Both the position numbers and the translations under genes were made by a program. A stretch of DNA of 64,000 nt, taken from Panopea generosa. Lineage: Eukaryota; Mollusca; Bivalvia; Adapedonta; Hiatellidae. The notes under the pieces are model-generated. The model searched no databases. It saw only the letters and a program-made list of their open reading frames with translations, and was not told the origin of the DNA. The stretch lies in the NCBI GenBank assembly GCA_029582155.1, contig CM055912.1, positions 1,054,001-1,118,000 on the forward strand. Direction: 5' to 3'. This document shows, piece by piece, positions 2,010-64,000 of the stretch. Numbering within the stretch: position 1 is the stretch's first letter; the number at the start of each line of letters is the position of its first letter.

Positions 2010-2962
2010 TGAGATTATATGGGGGAATTTTCACCTTTTTGGGATGGTACTAGTGCAGATAAGTAGGGAGGAGTCATATGGTTTACCATTTTATAGAAAA
2101 TAATTAATTTGTGTTTCGTCCTTCAAGTTTCTAGACTTTTACACCCAACTTCTATGTTTAAGTTATTAATTAATATAAGTTTTGTTGTTCCAGTTGCAAT
2201 GCGTGCTGCTTCATGTTGAATTTTTTCTCGTGTTTTTCATAATTAGTGCAGTTATCTCAGATTGTGTTATCATATTCTAACAGTGGTCAGATAAAAGATG
2301 TATATATAGTCTCCAAGGATCTTCTGTCTAGCTGATATTTCAGTTTTATGTATTCAATATGAGAGCGCCAGGTACAGTTGTTTGATAAAAGTATAACTAA
2401 GTGTTTGTGTGATTGTACTTCTGATATTTGTTAGTTATGCATATATAGTGGTGGATGAACGGGTTGATTATGTTTCCTAGATAAGAAGCGATTCAGTCTT
2501 CGACGGATTGAAAGTTACAAGCCATTGTTTTGACCATTCAGTGATTTTGTTGATGTTGGAATTCAAAATTTGTGCAGCATTGTTTATATTGTTATTGTGA
2601 TTGATTATAAAGTATAGGCTTGTAGCATCTGCAAAAAGACGAATGTTAGATACAATATCAGATACTATGTCATTAATATAGACTAAAAATAGAAGTGGAC
2701 CTAAAATGGACCCCTGAGGCACTCCGGCCTTGATTAATGTCCAATCAGATTTGGTACAAGGCAAAATAACACATTGAACATTGCCTATCTTTTAGGTAGT
2801 CATTTAGTAAATTTATAAGCTGATCTGACATTCCTGCTGCTTTTAACTTGACTATTAGACCTTTGTGCCAAACTTTATCAAAAGCTTTGCTTATGTCAAA
2901 AAATATAACGCGAACTTCTTTACCGTCATCAATAGCTTTACTGAATATACTGTACAGATAAT
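2010..2962 (-). pseudogene. Non-LTR retrotransposon (LINE) reverse transcriptase fragment
   Basis: Read on the minus strand, this is the middle and C-terminal part of a LINE ORF2. In order it shows a DISKAFDKVWH block (about 2880), GVPQGSILGPLLFLVYIND (about 2720-2660), the catalytic motif as LFADATSLY where FADD is expected (about 2640), a thumb-like segment, and a C-terminal stretch resembling MTPPYLSALVP near 2070. At least two frameshifts (about 2765 and 2480), in-frame stops and the D-to-A change show it is dead. The style fits Jockey/CR1-like elements; the exact clade is not determined. Both ends are cut by minisatellites. Confidence 0.85.
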
Positions 2963-2963
2963 T

Positions 2964-4290
2964 ACACTTGAAACATGGATATAAGATATAACATTGAAAT
3001 CATGGAGATAAGAAATTACATTAAAACCATGGATATAAAAAAAACCACTGAAACCATGGTGATAAGAAATTACACTGAACCCATGGAGATAAGGAATAAC
3101 ACTGAAACCATCGACATAAGAAATTACAGTGAAACCATGGTGATAATAAATAACACTGAAACCATGGAGATAAGTAATTACATTAATTGAGATGCAAAAT
3201 TATATTAAAAGCAAGGATATAAGAATCTACATTAAAACATGGAGATAACAAATCACACTGAAACCATGGAGATTGGAAATTGCACTGAAACCATGGAGAT
3301 AAGAAATTACACTAAAACCATAGTGATAAAAATAACACTAAACCATGGTGATAAGAAATTACACTGAAACCATGGAGATAAGAAATTACACTGAAACAAT
3401 GGAGATAAGAAATTACACTGAACCCATGGAAATAAGAAATTGCACTGAACCCATGGAGATAAGAAAATACACTGAAACCATGGACATAGAAATTACAATG
3501 AAACCATGGTGAAAATAAATTACAATGAAACCATGGTGATAAGAAATAACACTGAAACCATGGAGATAATAAAATTACATAAATTGAAATGCAAAATTAT
3601 TAAAAGCATGGAGAAAATAAATTGCATATAAAACATGGATATAAGAAATTACACAGAAGCCATGGAGATAAGAAATTTACACTGAAACCATGGTGATAAG
3701 AATTAACATTGAAAAGAAATAAAATTAATTGAAATGCAAAATTGCATTAAAAAGATGGAGATAAGAAATAACACTGAAACCATGGAGATAAGAAATTACA
3801 CTGAAACCATGGTGATAAAAAATTACACTGAAACTGTGGTGATAAGAAATAATATTGAAAAGAAATAAAATTGATTGAGATACAAAATTGCATTAAAAGG
3901 ATGGAGATCAGAAATAACGCTGAAACTATGGTGATAAGAAATTACACTGAAACAGTGCAGATAAGAAATTACACTGGAACCATGGTGATTAGAAATTACA
4001 CTGAAACTGTGGTGATAAGAAATAATATTGAAAAGAAATAAAATTGATTGAGATACAAAATTGCATTAAAAGGATGGAGATCAGAAATAACACTGAAACT
4101 ATGGTGATAAGAAATTACACTGAAACAGTGCAGATAAGAAATTACACTGGAACCATGGTGATTAGAAATTACACTGAAACCGTGATGATTAGAAATTACA
4201 CTGAAACCGTGCTAATAAAAATTACACTGAAATCATGGTTGTAAGAAATTACAATGAAACCATGGTGATAAGAAATTACACTGAAACCAA
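2964..4290. repeat. 27-bp minisatellite, about 49 copies
   Basis: The unit is approximately CATGGTGATAAGAAATTACA plus CTGAAAC. Since 27 is divisible by three, it creates spurious reading frames of a nine-residue motif (MVIRNYTET type) at 2975-3190 and 4044-4244. Imperfect units with the interruption GAAATAAAATTGATTGAGAT recur, and a block of about 173 bp is duplicated (3831-4003 and 4004-4176). Confidence 0.9.
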
Positions 4291-6344: not shown

Positions 6345-7290
6345 GAGTTATACAGACAGAGCAGTAAGTGATGAATTTATACAGACAGAACAGTGAGTGA
6401 TGAAGTTATACAGACAGAGCAGGAAGTGATGAAGTTATACAGATAGAACAGTGAGTGATGAATTTATACAGACAGAACAGTGAGTGATGAAGTTATACAG
6501 ACAGAGCATTAAAAGATGAAGTTATACAGACAGAACAGAGAATGATGAGGTTATACAGACAGAGCAGTGACTGATGAAGTTATACAGACAGAACAGAGAG
6601 TGATGAGGTTATACAGATGACACAGTGAGTGATGAAGTTATACAGACAGAGCAGTGATTGATGAAGATGTAGAGACAGGGCAGTGAGTGATGAAGTTATA
6701 CAGACAGAACAGTGAGTGATGAATTTATACAGACAGAACAGAGAGTGATGAGGTTATACAGACAGAACAGTGACTGATGAAGTTATACAGACAGAGCAGT
6801 GATTGATGAAGATGTAGAGACAGGGCAGTGAGTGATAAGTTATACAGACAGAACAGTGAGTGATGAATTTATACAGACAGAACAGTGAATTATGAAGTTA
6901 TACAGACAGAACAGTGACTGATGAAGTTATACAGACAGAGCAGTGAGTGATGAAGTTATACAGACAGAACAGTGAGTGAGTGATGAAGTTATACAGACAG
7001 AAAAGTGAGTGATGAAGTTATATATACAGGGCAATGAGTGATGAAGTTATACAAACAGAACAGTGAGTGATGAAGCTGCAGAGACAGAGCAGTGAGTGAT
7101 GAAGTTATACAGACAGAGCAATGAGTGATGAAGTTGTAGAGACAGAGCAGTAAGTGATGAAGTTATACACACAGCGCAGTGAGTGATGAAATTATAGACA
7201 GACAGACACACAGAGCAGTGAGTGATGAAGTTATACAGACTGGGCATTGAGTGATAAAGTTGTACAGACAGGGCAGTGAGTGGTGAAGTA
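6345..7290. repeat. 29-bp minisatellite, about 32 copies
   Basis: The unit is about TGATGAAGTTATACAGACAG plus AACAGTGAG, with variation at the GAACAG/GAGCAG position. It grades into a pure (GACA)n tract at 7291. Because the unit contains ACAGACAG, the microsatellite probably grew out of the minisatellite. Confidence 0.9.
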
Positions 7291-7330
<40 letters not shown>

Positions 7331-7338
7331 TGACAGAC
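7291..7338. repeat. (GACA)n microsatellite, left half
   Basis: About eleven near-perfect GACA units. The tract resumes at 7517 after a 178-bp insertion. Confidence 0.9.
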
Positions 7339-11040: not shown

Positions 11041-12345
11041 ACAAGTTTTCATAGGCGCAAAACTGGTCCAAGTAGAGTTGGTCTTGTCTTGCATTTAAGT
11101 TCTGTAACATAAAACAGGTGTAAGTACAGTTGGTCTTGTCTTGCATTTAAGTTCTGTTATATAAAACAGGTCCAAATAGAGTAGGTCTTGTCTTGCATTT
11201 AAATTCTGTTACATACAACAGGTATAAGTAGAGTTGGTCTTGTCTTGCATTTAAATTCTGTTACATAAAACAGGTCCAAGTAGAGTTAGCTTGTCTTTCA
11301 TTTAAATTTTGTTACATAAAACAGGTATAAGTAGAGTTGGTCTTGTCTTGTATTTAAATTCTGTTACATAAAACAGGTCAAAGTAGAGTGTGTCTTGTCT
11401 TGCATTTAAATTTTGTTGCATAAAACAGGTCCAAGTAGGGTTGGTTTTGTCTTGCATTTATATTTTTTTACATAAAACAGGTCCAAGTAGAGTTGGTCTT
11501 GTCTTGCATTTAAATTCTGTTACATAAAACAGGTCCATTTAAATTCTGTTACATAAAACAGGTATAAGTAGAGTTGGTTTTGTCTTGCATTTAAATTCTG
11601 TTACATAAAACAGGTCCAAGTAGAGTTGGTCTTGTCTTTCATTTAAATTCTGTTGCATAAAACAGGTCCAAGTAAAGTTGGTTTTGTTTTGCATTTAAAT
11701 TTTGTTACATAAAACAGGTCCCAGTAGAGTTATTATTTTTTTGCATTTAAATTCTGTTACATAAAACAGGTCCAAGTAGAGTTGGTCTTGTCTTGCATTT
11801 ATATTCTGTTACATAAAACAGGTCCAAGTAGAGTTGGTCTTGTCTTGCATTTAAATTCTGTTACATTAAACAGGTCCATTCAAATTCTGTTACATAAAAC
11901 AGGTCCAAGTAGAGTTGGTCTTGTCTTGCATTTAAATTCTGTTACATAAAACTGGTCCAAGTAGAGTTGGTCTTGTCTTGCATTTAAATTGTATTACATA
12001 AAACAGGTCCAAGTAGAGTTGGTTTTGTCTTGCATGTAAATTCTGTTACATAAAACAGGTCCAAGTAGAGTTGGTTTGTCTTGCATATAAATTGTGTTAC
12101 ATAAAACAGGTCCAAGTAGAGTTGGTTTTGTCTTGCATGTAAATTCTGTTACATAAAACAGGTCCAAGTAGAGTTGGTTTTGTCTTGCATTTAAATTCTG
12201 TTACATAAAACAGGTACAAGTAGAGTTTGTTTTGTTTTGCATTTAAATTCTGTTACATAAAACAGGTATAAGTAGAGTTGGTCTTGTCTTTCATTTAAAT
12301 TCTGTTACATAAAACAGGTCCAAGTAGAGTTGATCTTGTCTTGCA
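11041..12345. repeat. 52-bp subterminal tandem array, about 25 copies
   Basis: The unit is about ATAAAACAGGTCCAAGTAGA, GTTGGTCTTGTCTTGCATTT, AAATTCTGTTAC. Two shortened units (about 11533 and 11873) join directly through GGTCCATT. GGTCCAAG and the CTTGC core are shared with the transposon's inverted ends, so the array probably arose by repeated duplication of subterminal sequence. Confidence 0.9.
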
Positions 12346-13690
12346 GTGAAATATTTTACTAAACCAATATTTAAAGCATCAGATAGACTTCTGTTGTTTT
12401 GAAAAGAGTTTGTTATTGCAGTGGTTTGATATATTAAAACACTATTAATAATTTAGAAATGGGTTTGGGCCACAAGTTATTCAAACATTTGATTCAGCTC
12501 TCCCCCTACAACAAATAACATATTGAGTGTCGTAGTTGTCAAACAAATAAATTTGAAAGAGAAAAAAGATAGAAATGTAAGAGTAACAGGTGAAAGAAAA
12601 GATAAAAACAAACTTAAAATAATACTAAAATCATAATGAGTTTTTTTATAAATACTGGTATTAGACTGTGATTACATGGTTAAACATAATATAACAGTAT
12701 TTATTGATAGAAAGGACAATTTTTTGCAAACATGTGTGGCATAAGATAGTGTGTGTGTGTAGGGGGGGGGGGGGGGGGGGGGGTAACTGCCTTATATCCT
12801 CCTCCTCCTCAAAGAATATGGTTTAGCAGTTATTACCATTATAGGTGTTTTGTACATATTTGAACATGGCCAACTTTGTAGTTTCTTTAAATTAAAGTTA
12901 CAATTCTCCTCCTAAATATACTATACTGAGTTCCAAATGTTTTGTTGGTATTTTCATGCGAGTTTAACTATAATACAAAAAAAGATTTCGATATTTTTTT
13001 TTTAATTCAACTATATTTGTCAAAGTACTAAGAGCAACATCAATAGAGTTTGGATTTATTTTATGGTCTGGTTGAAAGTTATTGCCCCTTTGTGTAAAAC
13101 AGCATTTTGTCAAATAAAAGCATAGTGCTTGTCTAGTTAAACAACCGAAACTGTGTTAATGACGAGATAAAACACCACAAAATGTAAACTTGTGTAAAAC
13201 AATGCATAATATGTCATCACTGTACATGCATTCCCTCTTGAAAGTTATGAAGTCGGTAAATTACCTCCCTTAACATTGAAATAAGAAAGATTTAAAATGG
13301 CGGATATCACCAGAATGAAAGTTGGCATATTTGATTTATTCACCGTTTCTGTTTGTTACTAACCCAAATTCAATTTCAGACTGCATCTTCAAAAGATCAA
13401 TTCCATATCCAAGCACACATCCGGATTTAAATGTACCCTATGGGATTTCCCATGTATTTTATCTGACAAAACTTTTGGTACTCAGTATAGATCCCTCCTA
13501 GATATTGTGCAATAACATTTATAGTATTGACAAAAATATAAGTTATATATTATAGGCACACTTAAACCTGGCTTTGGATAGCATGTGTTTGAATCTTTAT
13601 GGCAGTATTAATGCAAATTTTCTATTGGAAATGATTTTATAGGTTCAATTACACAAACTTGAAGACTCTTTGTCTGTTTGTTGGACATTT
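12346..13690. other. Interior of the 5.2-kb element, AT-rich
   Basis: Contains the 22-G run at 12762-12783 and a short start-like context AAAATGGCGG near 13296. That is followed by a 21-codon frame (MADITRMKVGIF...) that stops at 13362, perhaps the promoter and start of a lost transposase. GTAAATTACCTCCCTTAAC near 13257 is another repeat-like phrase. No convincing gene is seen. Confidence 0.35.
12762..12783. repeat. Homopolymer run of 22 G
   Basis: Preceded by (GT)5 and TAG. A run this long can form G-quadruplex structures and is prone to length error in sequencing. Confidence 0.95.
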
Positions 13691-17617: not shown

Positions 17618-18460
17618 TTAAAACAATGTATAGAAATCTTGAAAATAAACTGTTTTCAGATTCTTTTTAAAACTTTCTACAAATTCAGACAACCTTATGC
17701 TCAACGGTAGACTGTTCCACAGGCTAGGACCTACTGTACCAAAACTTCTGTCACTAAAACACTTTCTTTTGTTAAATGGAATAACATAGCACCTATCTGT
17801 GGAGTCTGAAGACCTCAAACCTGAAGCACTAAAATATCTTATACAACTCTCAGATCTAATTTTATCACCAGCAATGTTTATTTCCTTTGTACTACATTTA
17901 TTCAACTGTGCTCTACTACCAAATATAATAAACTCAGTTTTTGAAGTGTTCACCTTTAGTTTGTTCTCATTCATCCAGTTGTTAATTGTCTCTGCACATT
18001 GTTCAAGTTCTTTTATCGCATGTATTTACTTGTTGACTGGTGTTGGTTAGAAACGTTTATTTGCAATATGATCATCTGCAAATCCATAAACTGAAATGCT
18101 TGGTGGAATATTATCAAATAGCGTTCTCGCGTAAGTAAGATAGGGCCAAGGACCCAAACAACTTCCTTGGGGGACACTACATTGTAGCAAACGTGGGGTG
18201 ATAAAGTTGAATTTACACTCACTCTGCAGCTACGTGGTCTGAGATACGAGTCAACCCAACATAGTGCTTCTTTCCCACAGACACCATACTGGCTTTGAAG
18301 AACATTAAGAAGTATATCATGATCAACAGTATCAAAAGCTTCACTTAGATCGATTGCGGTCAATGCAGATATCTCTTGTTTCTCCAGTTCACCTAAACCA
18401 AGGCTCAGCATGAGCTTTTGTGATCACACTGTGTCAGTAGTCCATCTGCCTGTAACCTTT
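17618..18460 (-). pseudogene. LINE reverse transcriptase remnant with internal deletion
   Basis: Minus-strand reading from about 18455 begins with a decayed SAYR.HSTETA-like block and continues SALTAIDLSEAFDTVDHDIL (about 18350), a thumb block with WVDSYLRPR, then a scrambled stretch where the catalytic (F/Y)ADD should lie. In a new frame come NENKLKVNTSKTEFIIFGS (about 17960) and a C-terminal block with SDRSFGTVGPSLWNSLPLSI ending at a stop at 17618. The joining of palm and C-terminal pieces at IRYF/SASGLRSS indicates a deletion. This is a different, dead LINE lineage from the one at 2010-2962. Confidence 0.8.
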
Positions 18461-18654: not shown

Positions 18655-20025
18655 ATCTATGGTGATTGTGACTATATCTATCTATGGTTATTATATATGG
18701 TTATTGTGACCATATCTGTCTATGGTTATTGTGACCATATCTATGTTTTTTGTGACCACATATATCTATGGTTATTGTGACGATATCTGCCTATGGTTTT
18801 TGTCTATTGTAATTGTGACCATATCTATTTATGGTTATTGTTACCATATCTGTCTATGGTTGTTTTGACCACATCTGTCTATGGTTATTGTGACCATATC
18901 TATCTATGGTTATTGTGACCATATCTATGTATGGTTATTGTGACCATATCTGTTTATGGTTATTGTGACCATATATATCTATGGTAATTGTGACCTTATC
19001 TGCCTGTGGTTGTTGTGACTACATCTGATTATGGTTATTGTGACCACATCTATCTATGGTTGTTTTGACCATATCTATCTAAGGTTATTGTGACCACATC
19101 TGTCTATTGTTATTGTGACTACATCTGTCTATGGTTGTTTTGACCATATCTATGGTTGTTGTGAACACATCTGTCTATGGTTGTTATGACCTAATATTTT
19201 TATGTTTGTTGTGACCACATCTGTCTATGATTGTTGTGGCCACATCTGTCTATAGTTCTTGTGACAACATCTGTCTATGGTTGCTGTGACCACATCTGTC
19301 TATGGTTATTGTGGATCTGCCTATGTTGTTGTGACCACATCTGTCTATGGTTGCTGTGACAACAACTGTTTATGGTTGCTGTGACTACATATGTCTATGG
19401 TTGTTGTGATCATATCTTTTATGGTTATTGTGACCACATTTGTCTATGGTTGCTGTGACCACATCTGTTTATGGCTGCTGTGACCACATCTGTCCATGGT
19501 TGCTGTGACCACATCTGTCTATGGTTGCTGTGACCACATCTGTTTATGGTTATTGTGACCACATCTGTCTATGGTTGTTGTGACCACATCAGTCTATGGT
19601 TGTTGTGACCACATCTGTCTATGATTATTGTGACCACATCTGTCTATGGTTGTTGTTACCACATCTTCTATGGTTGCTGTGACCACATATGTTTATGGTT
19701 GCTGTGACCACATCTGTCTATGGTTGATGTGGTTGTTGTGACCACATCTGTCTATGGTTATTGTGACCAAATCTGTCTATGGTTGTTGTGGTTGTTGTTA
19801 CTACATCTGTCTATGGTTATTGACCTGTCTATGGTTGCTCTGACCAAATCTGGCTATGGTTGCTGTGAGCACATCTGTCTATGGATGCTGTGACCACATC
19901 TGTCTTTGGTTGCTGTGACCACATCTGTCTAAGGTTGTTGTGACCACATCTGTCTATGGTTGTTATAGACCACATCTATAAAAAAATATTATATGGTTAT
20001 TGTGACCACATCTATCTATGGTGGT
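18655..20025. repeat. 25-bp minisatellite, about 54 copies
   Basis: The unit is about TCTATGGTTATTGTGACCAC plus ATCTG. Variants carrying GTTGTTGTG or GTTGCTGTG are clustered, with GTTATT units dominant on the left and GTTGCT units on the right, which suggests local homogenisation. The array ends directly against the SINE-derived 106-bp array. Confidence 0.9.
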
Positions 20026-20790: not shown

Positions 20791-20859
20791 ATCTTTATAG
20801 TGTAATGTAGCACAATTTTCTATATGAAAAGGACTCCAGGTTCAAGTCCTGGTGGAGAC
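20791..20859 (+). tRNA. tRNA-like cloverleaf, anticodon position ATA
   Basis: Folds as a 69-nt cloverleaf: acceptor ATCTTTA/TGGAGAC (one A-C mismatch, two G-T pairs); D arm GTGT/GCAC with loop AATGTA; anticodon stem with four of five pairs around CTATATG; 4-nt variable loop; T arm CCAGG/CCTGG with the canonical loop TTCAAGT. TAGTGTAATG recalls the nuclear tRNA-Gln D arm. It is more likely a tRNA-derived repeat or pseudogene than a working gene. Confidence 0.3.
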
Positions 20860-21119
20860 CTCAGCACTTTTAACCAGTGTACAACATAAACACTTAATTC
20901 TGTCAACCAGAACTATAACATTAATGCTATTGTTGTATAATACATACTTCACAGACACTGAACTAGCCTAATGATTTCCATCATCTGTCATGAAAACTCC
21001 AAATTGTTCTGATTCCTGAAATAAACACATCCAAACTTACTGTTCAAATTTTTTTTACTACCTTCATTTCATGAATTCAAAACAGATTTGCAATGTAAAG
21101 TAAGAAGCCTCCAACAGAT
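20860..21119. other. Spacer between two tRNA-like sequences
   Basis: AT-rich with no recognised feature. The two flanking cloverleaves face each other from opposite strands. Confidence 0.35.
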
Positions 21120-21188
21120 ATCCTTAGTTGGGATTGAACCAACATCTTCCATTTTAAAGACGGATGTACTTCATTGTACTATAAGGAT
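21120..21188 (-). tRNA. tRNA-like cloverleaf with ochre-type anticodon TTA
   Basis: Read on the minus strand, 69 nt fold with all 21 stem pairs formed (one is G-T): acceptor ATCCTTA/TAAGGAT, D arm GTAC/GTAC with loop AATGAA, anticodon stem TCCGT/ATGGA, and T arm GTTGG/CCAAC with the canonical loop TTCAATC. The discriminator base is A. The anticodon loop CTTTAAA places TTA at 34-36, which would read the stop codon UAA; CTTTGAA of tRNA-Gln or CTTTCAA of tRNA-Glu would need one change. The D loop lacks GG. It could be a nuclear suppressor-type tRNA pseudogene, a mitochondrial tRNA insertion, or a SINE head. Confidence 0.45.
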
Positions 21189-24308: not shown

Positions 24309-26311
24309 AAAAAGGAGATCACCTTTGTAAATCAAATATGACAGGACAAAGAGGTCACATGATGAATATGTGAATAGTATACCTTTGGAACACATCTCAA
24401 ACAAGCAAAACAGGTTTTATTGAAACTTATGTAATTTCTACATCAAATCTATAGAAAACTGTTCAACCTTGAAAGTAAAAATCAGACAATATATAAAAGT
24501 TTGACCAAATGGAATATGAAAGTATTTCCAATACACAGCACTGAGGTTAAAATCAAGTTCAACCTGGTCTCATAAAATGTTTACAAACAGACTTTAAATT
24601 GGGACATTTTAAGAGATGTCTCTAAATGGCAATTTCGATGAGAATAGAGATATTAGTTAGATTGTTATAAGAAATACAAGAAATAGTAGAATAGGAATAA
24701 AGAGTTATTAAATAGGGTGTATGTTTAGTTAATGTGACATGTGACAGCTCTCTCACTGACAATATTGGCACTTTCACATGTATATACAGAAACTGTAGTT
24801 ATTCATAAACACAATTAAGCTGTGTAAACTAGTAAATATGTAAACGTATTGAAATGGCAACACTGTCTTTAACTATTACAGACTAACCGCAATTTCTGTA
24901 TAAAATTTTTTTAACTCACCAATCAGTTGATAACTGTATTTTACTGTAAAATAACCGTACTTTAACTTTAACTTTAAAATACCATAAAATGTCTTACTAT
25001 GCCACTATCACATACATTTTTCAACTGTTTTAAAAATGTTTCATCAAATATCATATATAGTTCTTCGATTTAGTTACTAAATTCACTGTTGAAAACTTCA
25101 AACAACGGTTTTTGTCACTTGTTATTGTTTTTCTCTCCCGCCGTCAAAATGAAAAGTGATAAAACTTTTCACACATCAAAATAGCACTGACACTGTAATA
25201 ATCACTGTTTATAAAAATACCTCGTTGGAGTAACTAAAATTGTCATCTGTCTTCTCCTGTTTAAACGTGAATCCAGAAATGTCCAGAAATACCAGAACAA
25301 AAATTCTGATAATGCAAAAAGAGAAAAATCTCTTTTACATGTTTAAAATCCATGATGAGGACAACTTAGCATTATAAAATAAGTCCATATTTCAAACTTC
25401 TGGTTGCTGGCTGAGTGTCATTGCTATGCTCCGCTCATATCACAATATCACAGTTAAGCGCCATTGTCACTCTGGTTGTTTTTACTGTTCTTAGTCCATT
25501 AATATTAAGTAAGTATAACTACAGGTGGGGGTAAAGGGTAGGTTCATCTCTGGTCCATTGTGTAGATAATAAGCCAAGGATATATGGTTTCAATCTCTTT
25601 AATCCAATATATCTCTAAAGATATTTAGCATCTTGAAAGTATACATTATGAACAATATCAATAATAAGGTAATACACATTACTGATACATCAAGTTACTG
25701 TATATATCATATTAAGCATATTGGATTACCGTATAGTTATATTAAGTTTATCTCTTATTCAAATAACAACAATACAGGTTAACTCATACATTTGTGTGAA
25801 GTGGCATATTACTAATATAAAACATATCTATTTAGGCAAAGTATGTCAACTTACATACACATCAAACATATACAATTACAGCTTATACATGTACATGACA
25901 AACACACAATTAGGCTTACCAAGTTGTGGACCTGAATATACTATTCCTATATACAAATACACCAGCTCAGCCTCTTCACACCACACATTACATGCTCTCT
26001 GTGAATCAGTTAGTTGTCTGTAAATGATTAAAAAGTTTACAGTGCAAATCAAGAATGATACAGTGATGCCATTTATGAAACACATGTACATTACTCAAAA
26101 TAAGCTAAACTGTCCAAAACAGAATAGGCCAAAAGCATTAAAGATAAAATCATCTGATGAGACATATTTACTTAATTGAATACATAATGAAAATCAACAA
26201 ACCTTACATCCAAATAAATCCTTTATAAAATCATTTAGATAACATTTAAACCCTCTGCAGAATCATACATTCATCCATTGTCATAACTTTCTAGGAATAG
26301 ATAAGCATGAA
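24309..26311. other. AT-rich intergenic DNA
   Basis: The first bases (AGCTAAAAAGGAGATCACC) continue the AGCTCACC repeat. Around 25130-25480 a few CpG-containing phrases (CTCCCGCCGTCAAAATG, AAGCGCCATTGTC) are seen but no gene could be built. The 100-residue frame at 25721-26023 has no recognisable motif. Confidence 0.35.
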
Positions 26312-26436
26312 TGAAACAGTGTGTATGTAACCTACTAGGAGAGGAATTTATGTAAACGGTTCAGTTAGCTCAGATGTAAGCGAAGGGTCACGATTCGAGT
26401 CCCAGACTGGCTACATATTTTTCTCGTCCTGTAACA
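26312..26436 (+). repeat. TRIM 5' LTR (125 bp)
   Basis: Starts TGAAACAGTG and ends CCTGTAACA. Compared with the 3' LTR it lacks 17-18 nt in the middle of the tRNA-like part (the anticodon 5' side), so its tRNA fold is broken. The B box remains as GATTCGAGTCC. Confidence 0.7.
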
Positions 26437-26542
26437 TTGGCGCCCAGTGAGGGACTGTGACTGATATATATTCCGAGAAACATTTCACATGATTCTGTTC
26501 TCTATGGAAATTCGGGACGAATTCCAAATTTGTGAGGGAATA

Positions 26543-26683
26543 TGTCACAGTGTGTATGTAACCTATAGGAGAGGAATTTATGTAAGCGTATGATTAGCTC
26601 AGAAGGTAGAGCATTTGCCCTGTAAGCGAAGGGTCCCAGGTTTGAGTCCCGGACTGGCTGCATATTTTTCTCGTCCTGTAACA
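26543..26683 (+). repeat. TRIM 3' LTR (141 bp) with tRNA-Thr-like core
   Basis: Starts TGTCACAGTG and ends CCTGTAACA. From about 26594 it contains A box TAGCTCAGAAGG, D stem GCTC/GAGC, anticodon stem TTTGC/GCGAA around loop CCTGTAA (anticodon TGT, Thr), and T stem CCAGG/CCCGG with B box GGTTTGAGTCC. The 3' acceptor side ACTGGCT is present, but the 5' acceptor strand does not match it. Confidence 0.7.
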
Positions 26684-27559
26684 TTATTTACTTTGTTGCA
26701 AATACCTGGGTTTTTTTCAACCAAGTTACACTCAAAATGTATTTGACTGAAGTTATCACCTTCCAGGACAATGTTTACACGAGGATATTTTTTCTAGAGG
26801 AGAATTTTATATATGCACCAGTAACTGGTACCAAAATGGCCTAAATCTTTTTTGTGTACATGTTCAACCGGGCCAAATAACACATGATTTGATGGGTGTA
26901 CGTTGTATTTGGAATGACAATCTATCAAATACAAAAAGGTAAGCAGAAGCAAAATGATTTTGTTATTTTTTTACAGTTATTTTACGGTAAGTACACCGGT
27001 AATACTGTCAAGAAGCATATAAACACATTACCTTTGATGACCATAATGCAGTTTGACCATTTTCCTACTCAAAATTAGAGATATACATACAATAAGATAC
27101 TCACAATCTTTAACTTTATTTTTATCCATATAGAAAAAAGTATTTTTTGCATATGCCATAATAATGAGGTCATTTATATTTTGCAAATTCCACATGGGTA
27201 CCCATGTATCGAGTATTAACCCCTGCATTGAATAGTTGATAATATAGAATAGTGATTAATGTAATGAATATGCATAGACAACCGCCAAATAATCACGTAA
27301 TGAAATAGTCGCTTGTCACGTGATAATTTAGCTTCAAATATATCTGTGCAATATTTGCAAATGCTGAAGTTCAGGTTTGCAATTGTTTTGACCTGTCTAG
27401 ATCTTTTTTCTTGCGTTCCGTAAACGCATATGTATAAAATGTGTGTGAATATATATGCAGGTGCTCGTATGTGTTAATCACGAGACGAAAACATCCGGGG
27501 ATGCGCTAGAAGGAACCTTTTGCTAGACAAAATCTTGTTTGCTTACATACGTTTCCGAA
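26684..27559. other. AT-rich intergenic DNA, CpG rising towards 27.4 kb
   Basis: No gene seen. From about 27290 CpG-containing phrases appear (AATCACGTAATG, GTCACGTGATAA, TTGCGTTCCGTAAACGC), leading into the promoter-like stretch. Confidence 0.35.
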
Positions 27560-60419: not shown

Positions 60420-60545
60420 CACGGTCTAAGGAGCCTTTTGACATTTTTTATTTTTGCGTCTCCCGAGACAGCAGATCAGATATCAAAATAATAAAAAAGC
60501 TGTCCATCCACGCCTTAATCATATCAGACTAAGGTTGTTCATATT
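60420..60545 (-). repeat. Dispersed hairpin repeat, reverse copy
   Basis: The inverse of 31431-31540, with ACAGCAGATCAGATATC and AAAAAAGCTGTCC as hairpin arms. It ends only a few bases before the frame at 60519-60863 and may overlap its start. Confidence 0.55.
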
Positions 60546-60863
60546 GGTAAGTTTTATGTGGAGATGTGGAAAGGAATCCTGGACCACCACGTTACAAGTT
60601 TAACAAAATGTCCTGAAATGGATTTTTTCACCAGGGTCATCAAATATTCAATCAATTTTCACACGGAAGACATGTACCATGGTGTTTGCATTTTTTCAAA
60701 TGCATTATTAAAACCATTTGATAGCTACTGTTGGAAAAGTATTGATATGGACTCTGTATTGTATGCAGGAAATTATTTATATAGATACACAAAAGAAATA
60801 TTAAACACACCACATTCTTTTCTAAATCCTAACGAATTGCTTTTTAACATATCAGAAATCTAA
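60519..60863 (+). CDS. Orphan reading frame, possible exon or relic of an OTU-like/tegument-like protease protein
   Basis: 114 codons are open from a stop at 60516 to TAA at 60861; the first ATG is at 60564. Composition is protein-like. The stretch FSNALLKPFDSYCWKSIDMD, SVLYAGNYLYRY, then FLNPNELLF follows a pattern (Cys, small residues, W, D-(I/M)-D-x-(I/V)-L, G-(N/D)-x-L-Y, L-P-like end) known to me from uncharacterised cysteine-protease-like domains of invertebrate proteins, some linked to Helitrons. The Cys of YHGVC could then be the nucleophile. No His/Asp partner is visible. An acceptor-like ATATCAG precedes codon three. It could be a real exon, a gene fragment or transposon cargo. Confidence 0.35.
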   Translation, partial: SYQTKVVHIGKFYVEMWKGILDHHVTSLTKCPEMDFFTRVIKYSINFHTEDMYHGVCIFSNALLKPFDSYCWKSIDMDSVLYAGNYLYRYTKEILNTPHSFLNPNELLFNISEI

Positions 60864-61489: not shown

Positions 61490-62995
61490 GAATCTGTTGA
61501 ACCCCATGCCCCAGTTTTGATCTACTGAAGCCCTGTCCCCTCTAGATCTGCGGAAACTCCTGCCCCCCTCTTGATCTGTTGCCATTGTCCCACTCTAAAT
61601 CTGCTAAAACCCCTGTCCCTCTCTGGATCTGCTAAATCTCATGTCCCCCTCTGGATCTGCTGATGTTCATGCCCCCCTCTGGATTTGCTGAAGCTCATGT
61701 CCCCCTCTGGATCTGCTGAAGCTTGTGTCTCCCTCTGGATCTGCTGAAGCTCATGTCTTCCTCTGGATCTGCTGAAGCTCATGTCTTCCTCTGGATCTGC
61801 TGCAACTCATGTTGCTGAAGCTCATGTCATCCTCTGGATCTGCTGAAGCTCATGACTCCCTCTGGATCTGCTGAAGCTCATTTCTCCCTCTGGATCTGCT
61901 GAAACTCATGTTGCTGAAGCTCATGTCTCCCTCTGGATCTGCTGAAGCTCATGTCCCCCTCCGGATCAGCTGAAGCTCATGTCCCCCTCCGGATCTGCTG
62001 AAGCTCATGTCTACCGCTGGATCTGCATAAGCTCATGTCCCCCTCTGGATTTGCTGAAACTCATGTCTTCCTCTGGATTTGACGAAGCTCATGTCACCCT
62101 CTTGATCTGCTGAAGCTCATGTCGCCCTGTGGATCTGCTGAAGCCTCTATTCCCATCTGAATCTGCTGAAGCTCATGTCCCCATCTGGATCTGTTGAAGC
62201 TCATGTCCCCCTCTGGATCTGCTAAAGCTCATGTCTTCCTTTGGATCTGCTGGATTTCATGTCCCCCTCTGGATCTGCTGAAGCTCATGTCCCCTCCACA
62301 TCTGCTTAAGCTCATGTCTTCCTCTTGATCTGCTGAAGCTCATGTACCCCTCTGGATCTGCTGAAGCTTATGGCCCCTCTGGATCTGCTGAAGCTTATGT
62401 CCCCCTCTGGATCTGCTGAAACTCATTTCCCCCTTTTGATCTGCTAAAGCTTATGTCCCCCTCTAGATCTGCTGAAGCTCATGTCTCCCTCTAGATCTGC
62501 TGAAGCTCATGTCCCCCTCTGGATCTGCTGAAGCTCATATCTCCCTCTGGATCTGCTGGAGCTCATGTCCCCCTCTGGATCTGCTGAAGCTCATGTTCGC
62601 CTCTGGATCTGCTGAAGCCTCTATTCCCCTCTGGATCTGCTGAAGCTCATGTCCCACTCTGGGTCTGCTGAAGCCTTTATTCCCATCTGGATCTGCTGAA
62701 GCCTCTATTCTCACCTGGATTTGATGAAGATGCTGTCCCCACTCTGGAATTGTTGAAGCCCCTGTCCATGCCTCTCTCCCCTCCCCCCCCCCCCCCCCCC
62801 CCCCCTCTTCTAGATCTGCTGAAGCCCCTGCCCTCGCCCCCTCTTGATCTGCTGATGACCCTTTCCCATCTGGAATCTGCTGAAGCTCATGTCCGCCTCT
62901 GGATCTGCTGAAGCCTCTGCCCTGTTTTGGATTTGCTGAAGGCCCTGCCCCCACTTAACTATTCATGTCCCTGTCCTCCTTTGGATCTGCTTGTG
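61490..62995. repeat. 28-bp C-rich minisatellite, about 50 copies
   Basis: The unit is about CTCTGGATCTGCTGAAGCTC plus ATGTCCCC. It contains a run of 23 C at 62783-62805 and units of altered length nearby. The minus-strand frame at 62535-62954 (repeated HELQQIQRGI/ASADP and a Gly run from the C tract) is a by-product. Confidence 0.9.
62783..62805. repeat. Homopolymer run of 23 C
   Basis: Lies inside the 28-bp array. Together with the 22-G run at 12762 it is one of two extreme G/C homopolymers in an AT-rich window. Confidence 0.95.
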
Positions 62996-63791: not shown

Positions 63792-63860
63792 GTCTTTGTA
63801 GTACAAGAAAGTACAAACTCCTTCTAGGAGTGAGATGTCAGTTCAAGTCTGACCTTTGAC
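63792..63860 (+). tRNA. tRNA-like cloverleaf, anticodon position TCT
   Basis: 69 nt: acceptor GTCTTTG/CTTTGAC with three T-T mismatches in the middle; D arm GTAC/GTAC, loop AAGAAA; anticodon stem AACTC/GAGTG with loop CTTCTAG; variable loop AGAT; perfect T arm GTCAG/CTGAC with loop TTCAAGT. TAGTACAA..AAGTACA and AGATGT are shared with 21120-21188, and both are followed by CTG...GGCTTC, which suggests one tRNA-derived repeat family. Confidence 0.3.
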
Positions 63861-64000
63861 AAACTGATAGGCTTCCATTAATTTTTCATATAAAGGCTTT
63901 TAAGTGTGCAATGAAGTAGACTTTTGTTTTAAGTGTGGCTTATTTATACATATTTAACATTTAAGCAAATTTTAAGTTATGTTTCGAAAATCTTCAAAAC

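Follow-up and report, generated by a model that had tools for sequence, protein, structure and literature searches.

Miniature LTR retrotransposons (TRIMs) with tRNA-derived LTRs have been described as Helenus (TRIMp3), the tRNA-derived sequence in the LTR being the naming criterion (Kojima 2024, PMC10886601). That study reports Helenus in six animal phyla; five orders of pteriomorphian bivalves account for 51 of the families. The bivalve families include tRNA-Thr predictions and have Lys among their primer types, these not being stated to be the same families (PMC10886601). In animal Helenus the primer-binding site (PBS) region is shared with Gypsy elements only, the families are flanked by 4-bp target duplications, and box conservation across Helenus families has been reported (PMC10886601). 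The same study found no complementarity between the tRNA-like sequence of the LTR and the PBS (Kojima 2024, PMC10886601). In the paper collection searched, this was the only paper from 2024 on to treat Helenus as a tRNA-bearing LTR retrotransposon, and among the matches listed by wider searches no other was, by its title, a work on tRNA-bearing TRIMs. Another TRIM, biv-TRIM, has repeats of 202-218 bp, an internal region of 77-80 bp, a mostly GGGGAGA tract and no clear PBS (Satovic et al. 2019, PMC6934838).

Within the window, the whole 64,000-nt stretch of Panopea generosa DNA analysed here, a 372-bp element at 26312-26683 consists of two TG...CA direct repeats (125 and 141 bp) enclosing 106 bp (Table 1). 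Judged on its sequence, it is in all likelihood an old, decayed copy of a Helenus-type TRIM, that is, of a non-autonomous LTR retrotransposon (probability about 0.88). Its LTRs enclose a short internal region (125/106/141 bp) and the whole stays under ~1 kb, the tRNA-derived sequence by which Helenus is named is recognised in the 3' LTR (RF00005, 33.3 bits), and a tRNA-complementary PBS follows just past the 5' LTR, matching tRNA-Lys ends at 14/18 positions. The initial annotation had drawn the same boundaries, which proved exact, and the sequence bears out its reading of a TRIM whose LTRs hold a tRNA-like stretch with a Thr anticodon, the tRNA-like part being intact only in the 3' LTR. Its suggestion that this type lacks a standard named family was wrong, as the element fits the Helenus naming criterion (Kojima 2024, PMC10886601).

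Table 1 Features of the element, with positions in the window
Feature	Position	Strand	Remark
5' LTR, TG...CA, 125 bp	26312..26436	+	tRNA-like part interrupted by a 17-nt gap when aligned with the 3' LTR
A-box-like site, 5' LTR	26366..26377	+	10/12 to consensus; end cut by the gap
B-box-like site, 5' LTR	26392..26402	+	10/11 to consensus
T5 run, 5' LTR, possible Pol III terminator	26418..26422	+	
Internal region, 106 bp	26437..26542	+	
Lys-type PBS, 1 base past the 5' LTR end	26438..26455	+	14/18 to tRNA-Lys ends
Weak polypurine tract abutting the 3' LTR	26534..26542	+	8/9 purines
3' LTR, TG...CA, 141 bp	26543..26683	+	
tRNA-like sequence, 3' LTR, anticodon UGU	26594..26653	+	Rfam RF00005, 33.3 bits
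A box, 3' LTR	26595..26606	+	11/12 to consensus
B box, 3' LTR	26639..26649	+	10/11 to consensus
T5 run, 3' LTR, possible Pol III terminator	26665..26669	+	

Alignment of the two LTRs gave 112 matches and 11 mismatches (5 transitions and 6 transversions); gaps take up 18 positions of the 5' LTR and two of the 3' LTR. The local alignment score of 178 compares with a maximum of 55.5 over 500 mononucleotide shuffles. The LTRs have diverged at 11 of 123 aligned positions (K2P 0.095), to which a 17-nt gap is added. The 17 nt missing from the 5' LTR begin inside the last part of the A box, so that this LTR has lost what follows of the D arm together with the anticodon arm's 5' half.

The tRNA call in the 3' LTR exceeds the Rfam gathering score (33.3 vs 29 bits), with an E value of 0.00012 when 2 kb was searched and 0.004 when the full 64 kb was searched, and the Rfam alignment places CCUGUAA in the anticodon loop, giving the anticodon UGU (Thr). 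No tRNA was called by Rfam in the 5' LTR, even at E values up to 10, and ARAGORN called none in either LTR. The initial annotation had given each LTR a tRNA-like sequence with A box, B box and Thr anticodon; this holds for the 3' LTR, where these parts are intact, and is too strong for the damaged 5' LTR. As read from the alignment, the 5' LTR is a damaged homologue of the tRNA-bearing 3' LTR. Neither LTR folded unusually well as RNA (z = -1.16 and -1.45, with 28/200 and 19/200 shuffles folding equally well), and the fold of a trimmed 3' LTR (z = -1.96, 6/200 shuffles as good) was unconvincing.

The promoter boxes were scored against A-box and B-box consensuses (Table 1) and lie 44 nt apart in the 3' LTR and 26 nt apart in the 5' LTR. 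With the element excluded, no other 141-base stretch reached both box thresholds when the window was scanned on both strands in 20-base steps. In detail the boxes are degenerate: TAGCT is present in both LTRs, the published YGG appears as AGG in the 3' LTR with neither form in the 5' LTR, and the published GGTTC is replaced by GGTTT and GATTC in this element.

Three other tRNA-like folds, each of 70 nt, were found in the window at 20791-20860 (+), 21119-21188 (-) and 63792-63861 (+), with the ARAGORN anticodons ATA, TTA and TCT, respectively. All lack the usual GG in the D loop, have D arms that are alike and are of what we take to be mitochondrial style. Run on short stretches, Rfam scored them at 33.3, 64.1 and 39.4 bits, respectively, and of the three the whole-window run listed only that at 21119-21188. 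In pairwise local alignments, two of the three pairs aligned best in the tRNA part and the third gave a short, weak match in the flanks. ARAGORN made no call in any of 10 first-order Markov control sequences.

Target duplications were sought over 4-20 bp, with no mismatch permitted under 8 bp, one at 8-11 bp and two at 12-20 bp, and with ±3 bases of slop. None was found around the whole element, where the flanking bases are TGAA and TTAT; the 4-6-bp duplication that the initial annotation had asked for is thus absent, as is the 4-bp insertion mark reported for animal Helenus, which is not a naming criterion. An apparent AACA/AACA duplication was rejected because it requires boundaries inside the LTR. 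The identical test found no duplication around either repeat alone. A blastn search of the window with 26251-26750 as the query returned, beyond the query itself and its two repeats, only matches with E values of at least 1.1, and so no second copy.

One tRNA-derived SINE inserted twice, in separate events, with the PBS-like stretch arising by chance or forming part of the SINE, would be in keeping with the single copy in the window and with the lack of a duplication around the whole. That lack gains this account nothing, however, because the single repeats are also without duplications; the initial annotation had set against its own reading the case of SINE insertions with a duplication each, and neither repeat has one. 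The two repeats also share their end points, with TG opening and CA closing each, a single base separates the first repeat from the PBS, the purine tract abuts the second, and an A-rich tail follows neither. Independent SINEs are therefore not favoured, given the absence of a duplication for each repeat and the shared TG and CA ends, and we regard them as very improbable.

A 4-bp duplication may have decayed in a copy as diverged as this one, or recombination with another copy may account for its absence. Recombination between two members of one TRIM family would leave the type of element unchanged, in agreement with the Helenus-type identity, and would account for both the absent duplication and the LTR differences (11/123 aligned positions and the 17-nt gap). 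Plain decay of a 4-bp duplication accounts for the same facts, however, and the element carries no positive sign of recombination, so that a recombinant origin seems unlikely.

The PBS was compared with general 3' ends of tRNA-Lys-TTT and tRNA-Lys-CTT, not those of the host, and matched each at 14/18 positions with the first 8 exact. The Lys-type PBS that the initial annotation had placed at the start of the internal region is thus confirmed, beginning one base after the 5' LTR. Allowing up to 3 mismatches, this string occurs nowhere else in the window and is unique; no match was obtained in any of 100 shuffles. The purine tract annotated before the 3' LTR is weak, GAGGGAATA having 8/9 purines, a content equalled by 2.4% of the 9-mers in the window. 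A hairpin between the PBS and the 5' LTR was considered and rejected: it had z = -1.04 in the cut piece 26388-26460 and did not form in 26350-26460 (z = +0.92).

The complement of the PBS also matches both LTRs at 10/12 positions (GTCCCnnACTGG), in the 3' half of their tRNA-like part, and this pairing looks to be in the T-arm/acceptor-strand register of a tRNA. Without gaps, at most 12 of the 18 positions match in the 3' LTR and 11 in the 5' LTR. The complementarity is weak because shuffles reach an equal score: 227 of 5000 shuffled PBSs did so against the 3' LTR and 128 of 5000 against the 5' LTR, as did 185 of 5000 shuffled 3' LTRs against the PBS. Predicted duplexes with the PBS were more stable for the tRNA-Lys ends (-27.9 and -27.1 kcal/mol) than for the element's own LTRs (-21.0 and -17.6 kcal/mol). 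The simplest explanation appears to be the likeness of two tRNA-derived stretches. It is highly doubtful that the element brings its own primer, with a short Pol III transcript that terminates at the LTR's T5 priming at the PBS, competing for it or masking it. If true, such self-priming would contradict Kojima 2024 on the absence of complementarity (PMC10886601), and the bivalve Helenus families already published could show whether such possible pairing between PBS and LTR recurs.

From the arrangement of promoter boxes, T5 runs and PBS, a Pol III step in the life cycle of intact relatives appears probable. Their transcription by Pol III would use the tRNA-like promoter in the 5' LTR and begin immediately upstream of the A box. 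Each LTR here has one T5 run, 3' of the tRNA-like part; most Pol III transcripts should stop early at the first, and reading through it would be a required step. Those transcripts that pass the T5 of the 5' LTR would end at the T5 of the 3' LTR, making the terminal repeat R the segment from just before the A box to T5 and leaving the last 14 bases of the LTR as U5. Minus-strand reverse transcription would then be primed by host tRNA-Lys at the PBS, with a Ty3/Gypsy element providing reverse transcriptase and integrase in trans. With its 5' LTR promoter damaged, this copy has probably lost activity. The imperfect boxes would suit a TRIM transcribed by Pol II, in whose LTR a dead SINE sits without acting as a promoter. 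Against it, the element (26312-26683) contains neither TATAAA nor a polyadenylation hexamer (AATAAA or ATTAAA), TATATA occurring at 26465 in the internal region, and the boxes are reported to be conserved across Helenus families (PMC10886601); we consider such a Pol II TRIM decidedly unlikely.

The window also holds reverse-transcriptase fragments on the minus strand, of LINE type by their look. That at 2480-2791 scored 36.5 bits for RVT_1, above the curated cut-off, and that at 17621-18423 scored 19.5 and 19.1 bits in two frames, below it. The Pfam search covered a sample of 10 of the 192 stop-to-stop ORFs of at least 55 aa outside the main tandem arrays; RVT_1 was found in three, two further matches had E values of 0.07 and 0.098, and the other seven ORFs gave none. 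A protein search with one of the reverse-transcriptase fragments found 5 relatives among 9 candidates, and one with the ORF at 60519-60860 found no relatives. A local array of large duplications with minisatellites inside spans 36753-58866, its direct matches exceeding 1,800 bp at 93.0-99.7% identity and its inverted matches measuring ~837 bp at ~76%. Minisatellite arrays with base units of ~25-71 bp lie at 1218-2002, 2960-4289, 6346-7338, 11059-12352, 18655-19977 and 61519-62915.

Among other known systems, plant Cassandra is likewise a miniature LTR retrotransposon whose LTR carries a Pol III promoter, but this element has a tRNA-like sequence in place of the 5S rRNA sequence of Cassandra. 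No 5S rRNA match was obtained at 25500-27500 with E values up to 10, and Cassandra identity is ruled out on this basis. With biv-TRIM (Satovic et al. 2019, PMC6934838) the element shares being an animal TRIM with a short internal region; its sizes (125/106/141 bp) differ, and the conserved internal 14-mer of biv-TRIM matches the element at best at 9/14 positions, so that this identity was rejected (PMC6934838). tRNA-derived SINEs (SINE2) have similar tRNA-like A and B boxes, whereas the TG/CA repeat ends, the adjoining PBS and purine tract and the lack of an A-rich tail set the element apart from them. Exact DNA patterns of the PBS, the tRNA-like core and the LTR 3' end had no matches in a viral contig collection. 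In a prokaryote contig collection the LTR 3' end had one match, in Caloramator, which was taken as chance (~0.5 expected by our own arithmetic).

Counting against a Helenus identity are the missing target duplication, the departing boxes, the weak purine tract, the 14/18 PBS and the single copy in the window. The element differs from described Helenus in lacking the 4-bp duplication, in its degenerate boxes and in its weakly supported 10/12 complementarity between PBS and LTR, where Kojima 2024 finds none (PMC10886601). It resembles Helenus in its TRIM order, its length of 372 bp within the Helenus range of 311-1263 bp and the tRNA-like sequence in its LTRs, and both the Thr type and a Lys-type PBS are known among bivalve families (PMC10886601). 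In genome annotation, copies of this sort can swell the count of tRNA-like calls, as in the case of rust fungi (Kojima 2024, PMC10886601). We take the element to be an unremarkable, decayed representative of a kind already known, the Helenus described in 2024, and a further case of a Pol III tRNA-type promoter joined to LTR-type copying.
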